This document shows, piece after piece, positions 1-61,998 of a DNA stretch of 64,000 nucleotides. Source of the DNA: Chloroflexota bacterium (GTDB lineage: Bacteria > Chloroflexota > Anaerolineae > Anaerolineales > Villigracilaceae). Under the pieces are notes generated by a model, which saw only the letters and a list, made by a program, of their open reading frames with translations, made no database searches and had not been told where the DNA came from. A program made the position numbers and the translations under genes. The stretch's first letter is position 1. Every line of letters begins with the position of its first letter. Location: NCBI GenBank assembly GCA_019873655.1, contig JAIOAU010000007.1:62001-126000 (forward strand), in the 5' to 3' direction.

Positions 1-702
<702 letters not shown>

Positions 703-57585: not shown

Positions 57586-58740
57586 ATGAAAAAAGGTTTC
57601 GCATTGTTGTTCCTCTTACTCGTTCTTGGCGCATGCACGCCAGCAGAGACGCCGGCAGAGCCGACGGCGACGCCGCTCCCGACCGCCACCGCGATCCCGT
57701 CGCCGACCGCCACCGCGACCGTCGAACCGTCCCCCACCCCGGCCTACCCTCCCGAAGGCCGCGGCCCGACCGACTTCCCCGCCGACGTCAACCCGCTGAC
57801 CGGCCTGGAAGTCGCCAACCCCGCCCTCCTGGAGCGCCGTCCGCTGGCGATCAAGGTCGAGAACCTGCCGCGCAATCACCGGCCGCAATACGGCCTCTCC
57901 CAGGCCGATCTGGTGTACGAATACTATACCGAGGAAGGCACCACCCGTTTCATCGCCATTTTCTACGGCCAGGACGCCGAAACGGTCGGCCCGATCCGCT
58001 CGGCGCGCTTCTTCGACGCCAACATCGTGCGCGGTTACAAAGCCATCCTGGCCTTCGGTTCGGCGGATGAGCGCGTCCTCAACCGGCTGCGCGCCGCCGA
58101 GTTCGCCAACCGCCTGGTGGTCGAAGGCCCCAACACGCCGCTGCGGCGCATCGACCCGAATGGCTACAACCTGCTGGTCGTAGACACGGCCGCCCTGAGT
58201 CAGTACGCCGTCAGCCGCGGCATCGACGGAGGCCGCCAGGATTTGACCGGCATGTTCTTCCAGATGACCCCGCCGGAGGGAGGCCAACCGGCCCCCAGCC
58301 TGACCGTCCGCTACTCGGCGGCCATCTACAACCGCTGGGACTACGACCCGGCCAGCGGGCGCTATCTGCGCTCCTCGGACGTCCAGAACGACTACTCTGG
58401 CGGCGCGGGCGAAGTCTATGAACCGCTCCTCGACCGGGCGACCGGCCAGCAACTCGCCTTCGAGAACGTGGTCGTCCTGTTCGTCACCCACGAGGCCTAC
58501 AGCCGCACGCCGGAGATGTGGGACATCCTGCTGACCGGCTCCGGCCGGGCCATCGCCTTCCGCGACGGACAGGCCTACGAGGCGATCTGGCAGCGCAACG
58601 CCCCCGACGCCGTCCTTTCGCTGGCCTACGCCGACGGCTCGCCCTTCCCCTTCAAGCCCGGCGCGACCTGGTTCGAAGTGGTCGGCCTGAACAGCGAAGT
58701 CCAGCCCGAAAATTGGCGCTTCATCCATCAGATGCCGTGA
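57586..58740 (+). CDS. DUF3048 (YerB-like) lipoprotein
   Basis: 384 residues. Signal peptide MKKGFALLFLLLVLGAC with lipobox LGAC, a Thr/Pro/Ala linker (PTATPLPTATAIPSPTATAT), then DUF3048 with ADVNPLTGLEVANPALLERR, PLAIKVENLPRNHRPQYGLS and ADLVYEYYTEEGTTRFIAIF. In Bacillus YerB this domain is part of a sporulation/PrkA-linked protein; here it is an outer-face lipoprotein of unknown role. Ribosome-binding site GAAGGAGG. Divergent from the DUF2085 gene, followed by a terminator. Confidence 0.9.
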   Translation: MKKGFALLFLLLVLGACTPAETPAEPTATPLPTATAIPSPTATATVEPSPTPAYPPEGRGPTDFPADVNPLTGLEVANPALLERRPLAIKVENLPRNHRPQYGLSQADLVYEYYTEEGTTRFIAIFYGQDAETVGPIRSARFFDANIVRGYKAILAFGSADERVLNRLRAAEFANRLVVEGPNTPLRRIDPNGYNLLVVDTAALSQYAVSRGIDGGRQDLTGMFFQMTPPEGGQPAPSLTVRYSAAIYNRWDYDPASGRYLRSSDVQNDYSGGAGEVYEPLLDRATGQQLAFENVVVLFVTHEAYSRTPEMWDILLTGSGRAIAFRDGQAYEAIWQRNAPDAVLSLAYADGSPFPFKPGATWFEVVGLNSEVQPENWRFIHQMP

Positions 58741-58775
58741 GCGTCGAAGGGCTATCTCAAAAGCCTTTTCGAAAA

Positions 58776-58811
58776 CAGAATGGCCGCCGAATCTGGCGGT
58801 CATTCTGCTTT
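58776..58811 (+). terminator. rho-independent terminator of the DUF3048 gene
   Basis: 13-bp stem CAGAATGGCCGCC / GGCGGTCATTCTG (58776-58788 and 58795-58807, one G-U pair), six-base loop, then CTTTT. Confidence 0.85.
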
Positions 58812-58840
58812 TAAAAACAAACTGTAGCGGTTTCGTAATA

Positions 58841-58926
58841 ACTGCCAGGACGCGGAGAGCGCCGAGAAATACTCCAAATACGCCAGGAGCGGCCTTCATT
58901 TCGTCTCGTCTTTGCGCCCTGGCGGC
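58841..58926. repeat. second copy of long palindromic element (family B)
   Basis: ACTGCCAGGACGCGGAGAGC at one end and TTTGCGCCCTGGCGGC at the other resemble the arms of the element at 44886-44982; the core differs. It lies in the gap before pfkA. Confidence 0.65.
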
Positions 58927-58992
58927 GAACATTATTTGGACAACCCCCAAACCCCAAGAAAAGTTATAATCGAATCGTTCGGGAGAAATGCC

Positions 58993-60075
58993 ATGAAACG
59001 CATTGCCGTACTGACCGGCGGAGGCGACGCCCCCGGCCTGAACGCCGTCATCCGGGCGGTGGTCAAGACGGCCATCCTGGTCTATGACTGCGAGGTGCTG
59101 GGCGTCCAGGATGGCTTCGACGGTTTCCTCACCCCCGGCGGCGTCTTCCCCCTCGACCTGGCTGCGGTGCGCGGCATCCTGCCGCGCGGCGGCACCATCC
59201 TGGGGACGGCCAACCGCGGCAACCCCTTCGCCCGCAAAGTCGTCCGCGACGGCAGGGAGGTCATCGAGGACGTTTCCGACCAGGTGGTGGACGCCATCCA
59301 CGCCCTCGGGCTGGACGCCCTGATCGTGATCGGCGGCGACGGGACACTGCACATCGCCCTGGAACTGGGCGCGAAAGGCGTCCCCGTCGTCGGCGTGCCG
59401 AAGACGATCGACAACGACGTCGGCGGGACGGAGGTGACCTTCGGCTTCGACACCGCCCTGACGATCGCCACCGAGGCCTTCGACCGCCTGCACACCACCG
59501 CCGAGGCCCATCACCGCGTCATGGTGCTGGAACTGATGGGCCGCGACGCCGGTTTCATCGCCCTGCACGCCGGCATGGCCGGCGGGGCGGATGTGATTCT
59601 CATCCCCGAAATCCCCTTCCGCTACGAGGCGGTCGTCGCCAAGGTTCGCGAGCGCAACCAGCGCGGCAGCCGCTTCAGCCTGCTCTCGGTGGCCGAAGGC
59701 GCCAAACCGCAGGGCGGAGAGGCCGTCTATGCCCGCAGCGGAGACGCCGTCTATGTGCCGCGGCTGGGCGGAATCGGCCAGCAGGTCGGCCAATACATCG
59801 AGCAACAGGGCTTCGAGACGCGCGTCACCGTGCTGGGGCACCTCCAGCGCGGCGGCTCGCCGACCGCCTTCGACCGCTGGCTGGCCACCCGTTACGGCGC
59901 CGCCGCGGTGCGGACGGCCGCGGCCGGCCGATTCGGGCGCATGGTTGCCCTGCGCGACGCCAAAGTCGTTGACATCCCGCTCGAGGAGGCGCTGGCCGTC
60001 CCCAAACGGGTGGACGTCCACGGCGACGCCGTCCAGACGGCGCGCGGGCTGGGGATTTCGTTCGGGGACGAGTAA
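58993..60075 (+). CDS. pfkA: 6-phosphofructokinase (group III/mixed-substrate type)
   Basis: 360 residues; phosphorylates fructose 6-phosphate in glycolysis. Seen: VLTGGGDAPGLNAVIRAVVK, IGGDGTLHIALEL (residues 113-125), VPKTIDNDVGGTEVTFGFDT, and ELMGRDAGFIALHAGMAGGA. The pair G in GGDGT with K in PKTIDND (K137) places it with the PFKs of actinobacteria and relatives, where ATP is the usual donor; PPi enzymes carry GGDDT. A TATAAT (58965-58970) and GGGAGA ribosome-binding site precede the start. Confidence 0.92.
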   Translation: MKRIAVLTGGGDAPGLNAVIRAVVKTAILVYDCEVLGVQDGFDGFLTPGGVFPLDLAAVRGILPRGGTILGTANRGNPFARKVVRDGREVIEDVSDQVVDAIHALGLDALIVIGGDGTLHIALELGAKGVPVVGVPKTIDNDVGGTEVTFGFDTALTIATEAFDRLHTTAEAHHRVMVLELMGRDAGFIALHAGMAGGADVILIPEIPFRYEAVVAKVRERNQRGSRFSLLSVAEGAKPQGGEAVYARSGDAVYVPRLGGIGQQVGQYIEQQGFETRVTVLGHLQRGGSPTAFDRWLATRYGAAAVRTAAAGRFGRMVALRDAKVVDIPLEEALAVPKRVDVHGDAVQTARGLGISFGDE

Positions 60076-60117
60076 GCAGGCGGCGGGTCGGGCGGGATTC
60101 GGCCCCCAGACGCGGAA

Positions 60118-60138
60118 GGCCGCCCGGTGCGGGCGGTC
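60118..60138. terminator. hairpin terminator shared by pfkA and the small minus-strand unit
   Basis: Nine-bp stem GGCCGCCCG / CGGGCGGTC (60118-60126, 60130-60138) with a GTG loop; T-run short on both sides. Confidence 0.6.
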
Positions 60139-60159
60139 TCCCTGGGCGCGCTGTGGCTC

Positions 60160-60216
60160 CTATCGCAGACTTGCGAGGAGGGATGCCACAGCGCTTCGTT
60201 TCATACTACTATCCAT
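60160..60216 (-). CDS. 18-codon small ORF with own promoter and consensus Shine-Dalgarno
   Basis: Encodes MDSSMKRSAVASLLASLR, stop TAG. Upstream on the minus strand: AGGAGGTG (60226-60233), a full match to the anti-Shine-Dalgarno, nine bases before the ATG. The 3' half of the ORF and its stop fold into a hairpin (GCGCTGTGGC / GCCACAGCGC at 60148-60157 and 60185-60194, plus inner helix TCGCA / TGCGA). No gene follows in the same direction before the convergent pfkA. Could be a leader peptide without its operon, a small protein, or a dual-function RNA. Confidence 0.5.
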   Translation of the reverse strand: MDSSMKRSAVASLLASLR

Positions 60217-60274
60217 TGTAGGCACCACCTCCTCTTCTGTAAGGATGGCGGACGGATGAACCCCCTCTAGGAGC

Positions 60275-60303
60275 AGTATCACACATTTTGATTCGAATGT
60301 CAA
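60275..60303 (-). promoter_or_regulatory. promoter of the 18-codon ORF
   Basis: Minus strand: TTGACA (60298-60303), 17-bp spacer, GATACT (60275-60280). Predicted transcript start near 60268, giving a leader of about 50 nt before the ATG at 60216. Confidence 0.6.
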
Positions 60304-60339: not shown

Positions 60340-61998
60340 TCAGCGGCAAATCAAAATCGGCCAGTGCTGCATGCGGAGCATCACGTCCACGGCGCTGCCG
60401 GCCAGCCAGCGTTCGAGGAAGGACATGCCGTAGCCGCCCATCAGCAACAGGTTCAGGCCGCGCTCGTGCATGACGGCATGGAGGATGTCGATCGTCCCCT
60501 TGAGGTACAGAAATTCGGCCTGGATCTCATGGATTTCCAGATAAGCGCGCGCATAGTCCAGCGCCGAGGCGGGGACGCGTTTGCGTCCGGTGACTGCCGT
60601 CACCGTCAGACTCGTTTTCCACCTCTCGGCCAGGTAGGCGGCGACGAAGAGCGCCTCGCGGGCCTCGACGCTCCCATCGTAGGCCAGCAGGGCGCGGTCC
60701 AACGGACTGGCCTGTTCGAGGACGGCCAGCAGCGGCCGGTTGATGCGCTGCAAAATCGTCCGCAAGCCGGACCCCAAAGCGGTCAGCCCGCCCTCGGGCG
60801 GATGCTCCACCCCGAGGACAATCAGGTCGGTCAGCAAGGCCCGTTCTGCGATCCGTTCTGCCACCCGGCCCTCTTCGCTCAGGAAGGTGCTGCGCAAGCC
60901 GGCCGCGGCGCAGGTCTGCTCGAAGCGCGCCCGAATGGCTTCGGCCGCGTCGGGCGGCGCGCCGCGGCGGACGATGTGCAGTCCATGCACCGCCGCGCCC
61001 TCGCGCCCGGCCACGCCGACGGCCTGTTCGAGGGCCCGCCAGCCCGCCTCCGAGCCGTTCAGCGGAACGAGGACATCGGCGAACAGGCGGTCGGTGTAAC
61101 GTTCGACCGTCTTGGCCTGACGCCAAGCGCCGGGTTCACTGCCGGGGCGATGCTTCTCGCGCGCCGCCAGGTCGGCGACGGCCGCCGCCGGGCTGACCGG
61201 CCAGCCCAGTTGTTCCTGCAACTCGTAGCGGTGGTCGGAGACCCACAAGTACAGGTCGGTTTCGGTGCGGCCGGGGAACCAGCGCAGCAACCCGTGAGCG
61301 CGGATGGCTTCCACGATCGGCCGATAGACGGTCTCATACCAGTCGAGGAGGGCCTCCTCGGCAGAGACATCGCGCTGCAAGTCGAGGCCCATGAAGTAAC
61401 GATGGACGTCAATGTGTTCTTTCAGGCGGGCGTACTGGCCGGGGGCGGTCAGGCTCAGGTCCACGCCGGGCAACAGGTCGGCGGCGCGGGTCTGCTCGAG
61501 GAATTCGGCGTATTCGGCCTTGATGATGAGGTCGTCGGGCTGGACGTCGGGGGTGAGCGGGACGGGGGTTCGCACCTCGATGACGTGGGCGTCAATGGTC
61601 TCCATGCCCTCCTGGCGGGCGATCGAGACGCGATGGTTGCCATCCAGGACGAAATACACTTCGCCGACCTTGTACACTTCGATGGGCGGCATGCCGGTCT
61701 CCTGCGCGGCCGCCTTGACGCTCGCCCAGCGGCGCTCGTCGGTGGTTTCGCGCGGCAAGAAGGAGCGGGTGAAGTCCGTGTAACGGCCCACGCTGCCGAC
61801 GATGGCAGCGACCGGAATCTGCTGGACGCCGCGGTCGGCGCGTGCGCCCAGGCGCAGTTTGCGCGCCACCTCCTCGTAGGAGAGCAGTTCGTTCGAGCGC
61901 CCGCGCAGGCGCGCCAGAATCTCCTCCAGCGCCGCCCGCTGACGGGCGCTGCGGAAGTCTTCGAGGGCAGAGCGGTAATAGAAGTTATCGATAGGCAT
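60340..61998 (-). CDS. ParB-like N-terminal domain fused to two universal-stress-protein domains
   Basis: 552 residues. N-terminal 180 residues include a ParB/sulfiredoxin-fold motif, VYFVLDGNHRVSIARQEGME (GxxR-like DGNHR), after IPVAAIVGSVGRYTDF. A helical linker follows (about 190-305). The C-terminal 250 residues hold two UspA-like domains: VLVPLNGSEAGWRALEQAVG, then ALLAYDGSVEAREALFVAAY with a glycine-rich end LLLMGGYGMSFLERWLAGSA (the ATP-binding GxxG-9x-G[ST] region). The fusion suggests a nucleotide-sensing regulator with a ParB-type nuclease or DNA-interacting head. Start set at 61998; TACAAT at 62025-62030. Confidence 0.82.
   Translation of the reverse strand: MPIDNFYYRSALEDFRSARQRAALEEILARLRGRSNELLSYEEVARKLRLGARADRGVQQIPVAAIVGSVGRYTDFTRSFLPRETTDERRWASVKAAAQETGMPPIEVYKVGEVYFVLDGNHRVSIARQEGMETIDAHVIEVRTPVPLTPDVQPDDLIIKAEYAEFLEQTRAADLLPGVDLSLTAPGQYARLKEHIDVHRYFMGLDLQRDVSAEEALLDWYETVYRPIVEAIRAHGLLRWFPGRTETDLYLWVSDHRYELQEQLGWPVSPAAAVADLAAREKHRPGSEPGAWRQAKTVERYTDRLFADVLVPLNGSEAGWRALEQAVGVAGREGAAVHGLHIVRRGAPPDAAEAIRARFEQTCAAAGLRSTFLSEEGRVAERIAERALLTDLIVLGVEHPPEGGLTALGSGLRTILQRINRPLLAVLEQASPLDRALLAYDGSVEAREALFVAAYLAERWKTSLTVTAVTGRKRVPASALDYARAYLEIHEIQAEFLYLKGTIDILHAVMHERGLNLLLMGGYGMSFLERWLAGSAVDVMLRMQHWPILICR

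Follow-up and report, generated by a model that had tools for sequence, protein, structure and literature searches.

A candidate RNA switch of the Chloroflexota with an anti-Shine-Dalgarno segment inside its own short open reading frame

What is encoded in a gap of 264 bp on which two genes converge? The gap lies in the window, the stretch of 64,000 nucleotides analyzed here, between pfkA (plus strand, ending at 60075; Pfam PFK, E 2e-102) and a minus-strand gene (60340 to 61998, ending at 60340) for a 552-amino-acid protein with Usp domains. A sequence-only reading had placed a promoter, a leader, a consensus Shine-Dalgarno (SD) sequence, 18 codons, a TAG stop codon, and hairpins on the minus strand of this gap, and every one of these elements was found there as it had been claimed. 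The questions are whether they form a gene of their own and, if so, what the translation of so short an open reading frame (ORF) is for. Two observations concern the flanks. A frame of 801 codons (57616 to 60021, minus strand) runs antisense to pfkA and a DUF3048 gene and is most likely a by-product of high GC content. The Usp domains of the 552-amino-acid protein lie in its C-terminal half, and in many relatives the counterpart of its first ~285 residues is an ORF of about 285 to 300 amino acids, suggesting that the gene is a fusion.

Read 5′ to 3′ on the minus strand, the element consists of a segment termed P1, the extended SD (S), a start codon, a short ORF containing a segment P2, a stop codon, a segment P3, and a terminator-like hairpin. 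A promoter scan located TTGACA-17-GATACT at 60275 to 60303, with TG one base 5′ of the −10 hexamer (an extended −10). The surrounding 1.5 kb contains two promoter-like sites, both on the minus strand, compared with 0.1 in shuffled sequences; the second is weaker and overlaps the SD and the start. P1 (GCCATCC, 60243 to 60249) is a first anti-SD, located in the leader, that pairs with GGAGGT of S. S itself (GAGGAGGTGGTGCC, 60221 to 60234) is complementary, with one G-U pair, to the 16S rRNA tail of its own genome (ATCACCTCCT), and the SD core, AGGAGGTG (60233 to 60226), stands nine bases 5′ of the ATG at 60216. The ORF (60160 to 60216) comprises 18 codons, MDSSMKRSAVASLLASLR, and TAG. Within it lies P2 (GGCATCCCTCCTC, 60175 to 60187), a second anti-SD, which can pair with S in 13 bp with one bulged U or, through its GGC end, with P3. 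The 5′ arm of stem II (GCGCTGTGGC, 60185 to 60194) shares this GGC with P2. P3 (GCCACAGCGC, 60148 to 60157) is the 3′ arm of the same stem and lies just past the stop codon, so that GCGCTGTGGC and GCCACAGCGC form 10 bp. The last hairpin, GC-rich and terminator-like, occupies 60118 to 60138. The anti-SD P2 within the ORF, and its pairing with the SD, is an addition to the earlier description.

The probable transcript, whose ends are deduced from the positions of promoter and last hairpin, spans about 160 nt (60110 to 60268). The fold of the interval from 60076 to 60270 is better than that of 199 of 200 dinucleotide shuffles (z −2.87; 1 of 200 as good). The terminator scan gave no hit here, and because no good U tract follows the last hairpin in the window, termination at that hairpin is presumed; in many relatives a T-run can be seen by eye after it. 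This lineage, with its poor U tract, may end transcripts differently.

The tail of the genome's own 16S rRNA is canonical (CCTCCTTTCTA). In the source family, 16S rRNA has GCCTGGATCA where GGCTGGATCA is usual, the anti-SD itself being canonical. The 16S 3′ end reads TGCGCCTGGATCACCTCC in loci L305, L306, and L307 of the source family, and TGCGGCTGGATCACCTCC in L302, from another family of the class, and in L303 and L304, from another class.

Is the unit kept elsewhere? The sequence-only reading had proposed a tblastn-style search between pfkA homologs in relatives. When the gap was compared by blastn with its own genome and those of 100 relatives, 58 of the relatives matched at E values of 1.5e-4 or lower (best, 1.5e-66); most belong to the same family, and some to other families of the order. 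Sixty-six of these places, some of the later ones weak, were taken as loci; 64 were read for an ORF, and 62 distinct sequences were aligned (alignment A1) and used to build a covariance model, R1. We left out L095 and L096 (weak blastn hits, judged by eye not to be homologs), L019 (core identical to that of L018), and L081 (a second, diverged place in genome G060, its SD missed by the motif search). With its own and the training genomes included, R1 matches 202 of 301 genomes drawn from the order; among good genomes (completeness of 90% or more and contamination of 5% or less), it matches 134 of 175, and by genera 99 of 113. In a sample of 400 genomes from the phylum, 78 are matched. Forty places from the lower R1 lists were inspected by eye, and 37 had an SD, a short ORF, and hairpins; the other three (L297, L300, and L301), low-scoring model matches without S, were left out.

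A second model, R2, was built from 64 sequences that included most of those 37 loci. It matches 139 of the 400 phylum genomes (125 of the 284 good ones), training genomes included, and many genomes outside the training set match at E values of 1e-9 to 1e-12. These E values are rough and hold for single genomes; at a cutoff of 0.001, chance alone should yield about 0.4 matches in 400 genomes. When named genomes were scanned with an exact pattern, at least 118 stretches were returned, and among the matches listed, 80 of 80 were titled as Chloroflexi, Chloroflexota, or Anaerolineales kin, with names that include Anaerolinea, Leptolinea, Thermanaerothrix, and Villigracilaceae. Usually a genome has one strong match. 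Two strong matches occur in G307 (contigs C79 and C71) and in G603 (C4 and C7), and with the second, diverged place in G060 they show that the RNA gene is not always single copy. We have very little doubt that an RNA gene with a short ORF exists across the phylum. The unit, which had been called an orphan, is free-standing and recurs across the Chloroflexota.

The elements themselves are kept as well. P1 is GCYATCC in most of the order, and S, which is AAGGAGGTGATGYCC with variants, fits the 16S tail given above. Upstream, a promoter of the type TTGACN-(16..18)-(T/G/C)AT is present in 56 of 63 order-level loci, with a spacer of 17 in 52 of the 56 and the TG of an extended −10 in 51; the pattern is absent upstream of L017, L028, L073, L075, L080, L088, and L092. 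Start, frame, and stem are conserved in relatives, in agreement with the proposal of an independent promoter-SD-ORF-hairpin unit, and its elements exceed chance by the promoter scan against shuffles, the fold, the blastn conservation, and the covariation described below.

The neighbors vary. We counted them in flanks of about 1 kb at the 63 order-level loci and at 77 loci from other orders and classes. Within the order, pfkA accompanies the unit at 29 of 63 loci and is downstream and convergent in 29 of 29, a divergent gene for a membrane-protein-like product lies upstream at 27 of 63, and the Usp gene lies upstream at 3 of 63. None of these three genes was found at any of the 77 loci outside the order, 67 of which extend 800 nt or more downstream. 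A divergent membrane-protein-like gene on one side and convergent pfkA on the other is a recurring arrangement in the family. The neighbor tables show no co-directional gene shared between loci on the downstream side; they are noisy because antisense ORFs of high-GC DNA were picked, although the counts for the three named neighbors are reliable. Because its neighbors vary between loci, the unit is a gene of its own. The same variation leaves the suggested silencing of the 3′ end of pfkA without support.

The pairings were examined by covariation, which the sequence-only reading had suggested for the hairpin. Two-sided changes occur in 17 of 28 consensus pairs, all of them in stem II (7 of 10) and the last hairpin (10 of 11), and they fill 152 cells of the alignment, compared with 41.7 in shuffles that ignore kinship; every slid register gave a lower number, and related sequences inflate all such counts. 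Stem II is paired in 99.5% of cells. In the RNAalifold consensus, P1:S is paired in 96.8% of cells, and because none of its seven pairs changes on both sides, the support for P1 is its conservation.

Within the order, P2 is, with few exceptions, GGCATC-CCTCCTC, and its partner is GAGGAGG-(U)-GRTGYC, giving 13 pairs. S:P2 is paired in 99.3% of 805 cells, compared with 48.9 to 69.3% in slid registers. Seven cells have two-sided changes (1.0 in shuffles), and these fall in 2 of the 13 pairs, compared with 0.7 in shuffles, 15 of 500 of which have two or more. Since S and P2 are nearly invariant in the order, covariation there comes from these two column pairs. One column pair of S:P2 takes the forms A-U, G-U, G-C, U-G, and U-A, with no unpaired case among the 62 sequences. 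The bulge is absent in other orders of the class, where P2 typically reads GGCATCACCTC; examples from further classes are GGGCGTCGCC and GGGTGTCACC, with GGTGATGCCC as the partner. At loci outside the order, the end of S changes in step with its partner bases, and one such position is C-G in 49 loci, G-C in 12, T-A in 4, A-T in 2, T-G in 1, and unpaired in 4.

Energies of the S:ORF duplex point the same way. When S was paired with its own ORF and with mononucleotide-shuffled versions of that ORF, z was below −2 at 94 of 100 loci; L012, L267, L277, L294, L295, and L298 failed. Forty loci lay outside the R2 training set, and 38 were scored against dinucleotide shuffles, L310 and L334 being left out (S is GGGGGTG; both look intact by eye). 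The P value was 0.05 or lower in 33 of the 38 and 0.01 or lower in 20, in a test that is not fully independent because R2, though it has no S:P2 pairs, scores the sequences of S and P2 and because the loci are partly close relatives. The five that failed were L338, L342, L344, L345, and L346. We also exchanged partners between loci, with L288, which has an ORF of 43 codons, dropped from this test and from the folding predictions to leave 132 loci. At the 72 loci outside the order, the mean energy of S with its own ORF was −20.17 kcal/mol, compared with −17.62 kcal/mol after swapping (standard deviation, 0.23 over 20 rounds); at the 60 loci inside the order, the values were −19.89 and −19.13 kcal/mol (standard deviation, 0.09). 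Both standard deviations understate the uncertainty because related loci share partners. Together, these results make it very probable that the S:P2 switch is real.

L277, L295, and L298, from other classes, have a second SD-like sequence, GGAGGTG, inside the ORF and no P2 that matches S. Either of the two SD-like copies could be the partner of the downstream arm, possibly an inverted wiring of the switch.

The ORF is conserved in a particular way. At 63 of 64 loci, an uninterrupted frame runs through P2, from an ATG 6 to 10 nt past GAGGAGGTG to a stop codon before P3. All 63 loci have an ATG-to-P2 distance of 26, 29, 32, or 35 nt, equal modulo 3, while the spacing between SD and ATG takes values of 6, 7, 8, 9, and 10. 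ORFs have 15 to 20 codons in the order and 13 to 26 elsewhere, apart from the one of 43 codons. The peptide sequence behaves differently. Codons 2 to 7, which lie outside the stem, were compared between nearest neighbors among the 35 distinct sequences of 46 indel-free loci, and they show 8 synonymous and 43 nonsynonymous changes where 10.6 synonymous changes are expected. They show no excess of variation at third positions (entropy sums of 4.65, 6.46, and 6.00 for the three codon positions). Moreover, the frame in which P2 is read differs between groups. For this comparison, 133 loci remained after removal of identical S-to-stop stretches and pattern misses, 60 of the 63 order-level loci among them. 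The frame of P2 is the same at 60 of 60 loci of the order and at 11 of 14 other loci of the class; a different frame is used at the remaining 3 of the 14 and at all 49 of the loci that could be placed (of 59) in other classes. A conserved RNA segment thus gives different peptides. Since the loci preserve frame and stop but not the amino acids outside the stem, and since the frame of P2 shifts between groups, translation across P2 rather than the peptide appears to be selected.

One conserved feature is not accounted for by the switch. The nucleotides AUGGAUAGUAGU after the SD (60205 to 60216, minus strand, and homologs) are conserved as such in most loci, and codon 4 is AGT in 31 of 35 sequences. 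The segment has AGU codons and an out-of-frame UAGUAG without an amino-acid constraint, and it might be a binding site or an initiation enhancer.

Folding predictions were made for the 132 transcripts. When these were cut two bases past the stop codon, before P3, the mean predicted probability of S:P2 exceeded 0.5 in 124, and in 107 it was above 0.5 before P3 and below 0.5 once P3 was included. With P3 present, P2 pairs downstream (median, 0.47 to 0.69 by group). The full transcript retains S:P2 above 0.5 in 17 of 132 cases (1 of 60, 1 of 14, 5 of 22, and 10 of 36 by group), and a structure forced to contain S:P2 lies above the full-length minimum by medians of 8.9, 5.9, 3.1, and 3.7 kcal/mol in the four groups. 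S is mostly paired in the full transcript (median unpaired, 0.15 to 0.27), in the window with P1, so that the folds do not show an open SD. These folds are pseudoknot-free; within the order, S could also pair with the loop while the lower part of stem II is closed, as a pseudoknot.

We propose that the element is an autonomous RNA switch that is translated: a gene of about 160 nt, with a near-consensus promoter and kept throughout the Chloroflexota, whose very short ORF contains the switch that controls its own translation. We assign this reading a probability of about 0.6. At the level of sequence, comparison between genomes establishes the element with its promoter, the pairings S:P2, P2:P3, and that of the last hairpin, the ORF with its stop codon, the lack of constraint on amino acids beyond the stem, and the free-standing position; the order of folding, like transcription and translation themselves, is what we infer from them. 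In the growing RNA, P1 and then the ORF-embedded anti-SD P2 would cover S. P3, once made, would pair with P2 and so free S from it; the weaker P1:S helix would then be what still opposes the ribosome. While reading the ORF, a ribosome would cover P2 and finish just before P3, and translation itself would in this way keep P2 off S. The output is probably the state of translation or folding of the RNA and not the peptide, since neither a peptide sequence nor a downstream gene is kept; the RNA might, for example, act in trans in response to ribosomes or serve as a ribosome-binding decoy. More tentatively, and with the balance of our judgment against it, the RNA might be a sensor of translation, in which the ribosome on a throw-away ORF sets the fold and the fold, in place of a peptide or a downstream gene, is the output. 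It is a comparably speculative suggestion that such a sensor acts by exposing a segment to other RNAs or by capturing idle 30S subunits with its ideal SD. For the latter, 6S RNA, which captures RNA polymerase, is a model. An element of this kind would be a natural and compact model of how an anti-SD within an ORF can toggle the SD of that ORF, and it raises the question of what translation is for when the reading frame is conserved and the peptide is not.

Other explanations share part of this evidence. The element could be a trans-acting small RNA, in which the CCUCCUC of P2, on the loop side of stem II, pairs with the SD regions of other mRNAs, in the manner of the ar14/cuckoo RNAs of Alphaproteobacteria or Yfr1 of cyanobacteria, and the ORF makes the RNA dual function. 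A free-standing gene with its own promoter fits this, as does the placement of CCCTCCTC in the apical part of a covarying stem within the order, where P2 resembles a trans-acting anti-SD seed. One of three sub-threshold Rfam resemblances is ar14, at the right place, on the right strand, and with the same loop word. However, the CCUCC core is absent from P2 in several other classes (GGGCGTCGCCG and GGGTGTCACC), where P2 still matches the local S. S also fits its own P2 better than swapped partners, and a pure trans seed would need neither a kept frame nor a stop, so we consider this explanation unlikely. Alternatively, a functional micropeptide of mostly 13 to 20 residues could be the product, with the RNA structure only regulating its synthesis. 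Start, frame, stop, and approximate length are indeed conserved, and most loci of the order encode M-D-S-S-x3-S-A-(V/A)-A-S-L-L. Yet residues 8 to 14 of this peptide fall in stem II and P2, the codons outside the stem lack a synonymous excess, and the other frame of P2 in other classes yields different peptides, such as MSSKRMGVTAGEAR. A micropeptide as the product is thus a good deal less plausible still, and the small protein offered earlier as a main product is disfavored. Of the earlier proposals, that of a leader-type or dual-function unit is the one supported here.

Two further classes of RNA resemble the element in layout. Type I toxins are small hydrophobic peptides. In type I toxin mRNAs of the AapA or hok kind, sequential anti-SD hairpins silence the toxin, and in AapA3, as far as the account in PMC6733600 extends, an aSD1 in the 5′ UTR and an aSD2 in the ORF form the same arrangement. 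Prediction and comparison likewise indicate an SD masked by successive anti-SDs in the leader and ORF here. The peptides, however, are short, mostly polar by eye, and unconstrained, a consensus scan gave no plus-strand promoter-like site for an antisense antitoxin between 59500 and 61000, and the gene is spread over the phylum with usually one strong match per genome; a toxin mRNA is accordingly very improbable. A leader-peptide attenuator, or the 3′ UTR of a neighboring gene, would account for a short ORF lying over mutually exclusive helices (P2 can pair with S or P3) and followed by a terminator-like hairpin. Against this stand the promoter of its own at most order-level loci, pfkA, convergent wherever it was found, and the noisy neighbor tables, in which no shared co-directional downstream gene to be regulated was seen. 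A 3′ UTR of the Usp gene in particular was rejected, as that gene precedes the unit at only 3 of 63 loci, and we give this whole explanation hardly any credence.

Does the preferred reading, a translated RNA switch, correspond to a known family? At gathering score, Rfam 15 gave no match on the element in the window, and in 19 relatives it gave only seven tRNAs and one SAM riboswitch, none on the element. RcsR1, P6, and similar Rfam rows fell below their gathering scores, and the genome's only match to 6S RNA (RF00013) is elsewhere (C3:172536-172711). At one locus (L286:1066-1160), rnk_pseudo, the Pseudomonas rnk leader, overlaps the element on the same strand with 36.4 bits (gathering score, 55; E 0.012). 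A plasmid homolog was sought without a match, and three pattern matches in viral contigs did not have the architecture by eye. No description of the element was found in the open-licence literature. With no Rfam 15 family and no published description matched, it appears from these searches to be new: an RNA gene in 202 of 301 genomes of its order that recurs in the phylum and has gone without an Rfam 15 match at threshold.

Several known systems share features with it. Dual-function RNAs such as VcdRP and SR1 reportedly encode functional small proteins, and their coding part is separate from the pairing region. The element resembles them as an sRNA-size transcript with a small ORF and, so far as they are described, differs from them in that its ORF overlaps the pairing element and its peptide is unconstrained outside the stem. 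The Yfr1 motif of cyanobacteria contains CUCCUC. Yfr1 is a small RNA present almost throughout that phylum (PMC6778093, in the part available), and the element is likewise kept widely within one phylum; it carries an ORF and an SD, of which that part of PMC6778093 describes none for Yfr1, and gives no Rfam match to Yfr1. The Downstream-peptide and glnA RNAs of cyanobacteria have, according to the portion of PMC2864571 at hand, a 5′ UTR structure regarded as a riboswitch candidate and an ORF with synonymous changes. The likeness to the Downstream-peptide RNAs is that an RNA structure goes together with a short ORF whose indels are multiples of three, whereas here the structure overlaps the ORF, a synonymous excess is lacking, and Rfam gives no match.

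The ar14, or cuckoo, RNAs of Alphaproteobacteria (RF02344) have three hairpins that each carry an unpaired CCUCCUCCC anti-SD motif (PMC10746234, as excerpted). Both are genes of sRNA size with a stem bearing a CUCCUC anti-SD loop word. The match to the RF02344 model reaches 13.7 bits (gathering score, 58.8; E 3.3), and, compared with that excerpt, the element has one CCCTCCTC hairpin and not three, carries an SD and an ORF, and has a P2 word that differs in other classes, several of which are without the CCUCC core. Similar in design are AapA3 and hok. In the sections of PMC6733600 available, the anti-SD hairpins of AapA3, one in the leader and one in the ORF, are sequential and metastable. 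In both cases, a small ORF has its SD covered during synthesis by an anti-SD in the 5′ UTR and then by one in the ORF, and a later pairing changes the state of the RNA. The element differs, on the same partial account, in that neither a toxin-like peptide nor an antisense antitoxin was seen, in that its peptide is unconstrained outside the stem, and in that it is found across a phylum. It differs also in its last step, in which P3 would take P2 off the SD instead of trapping the SD.
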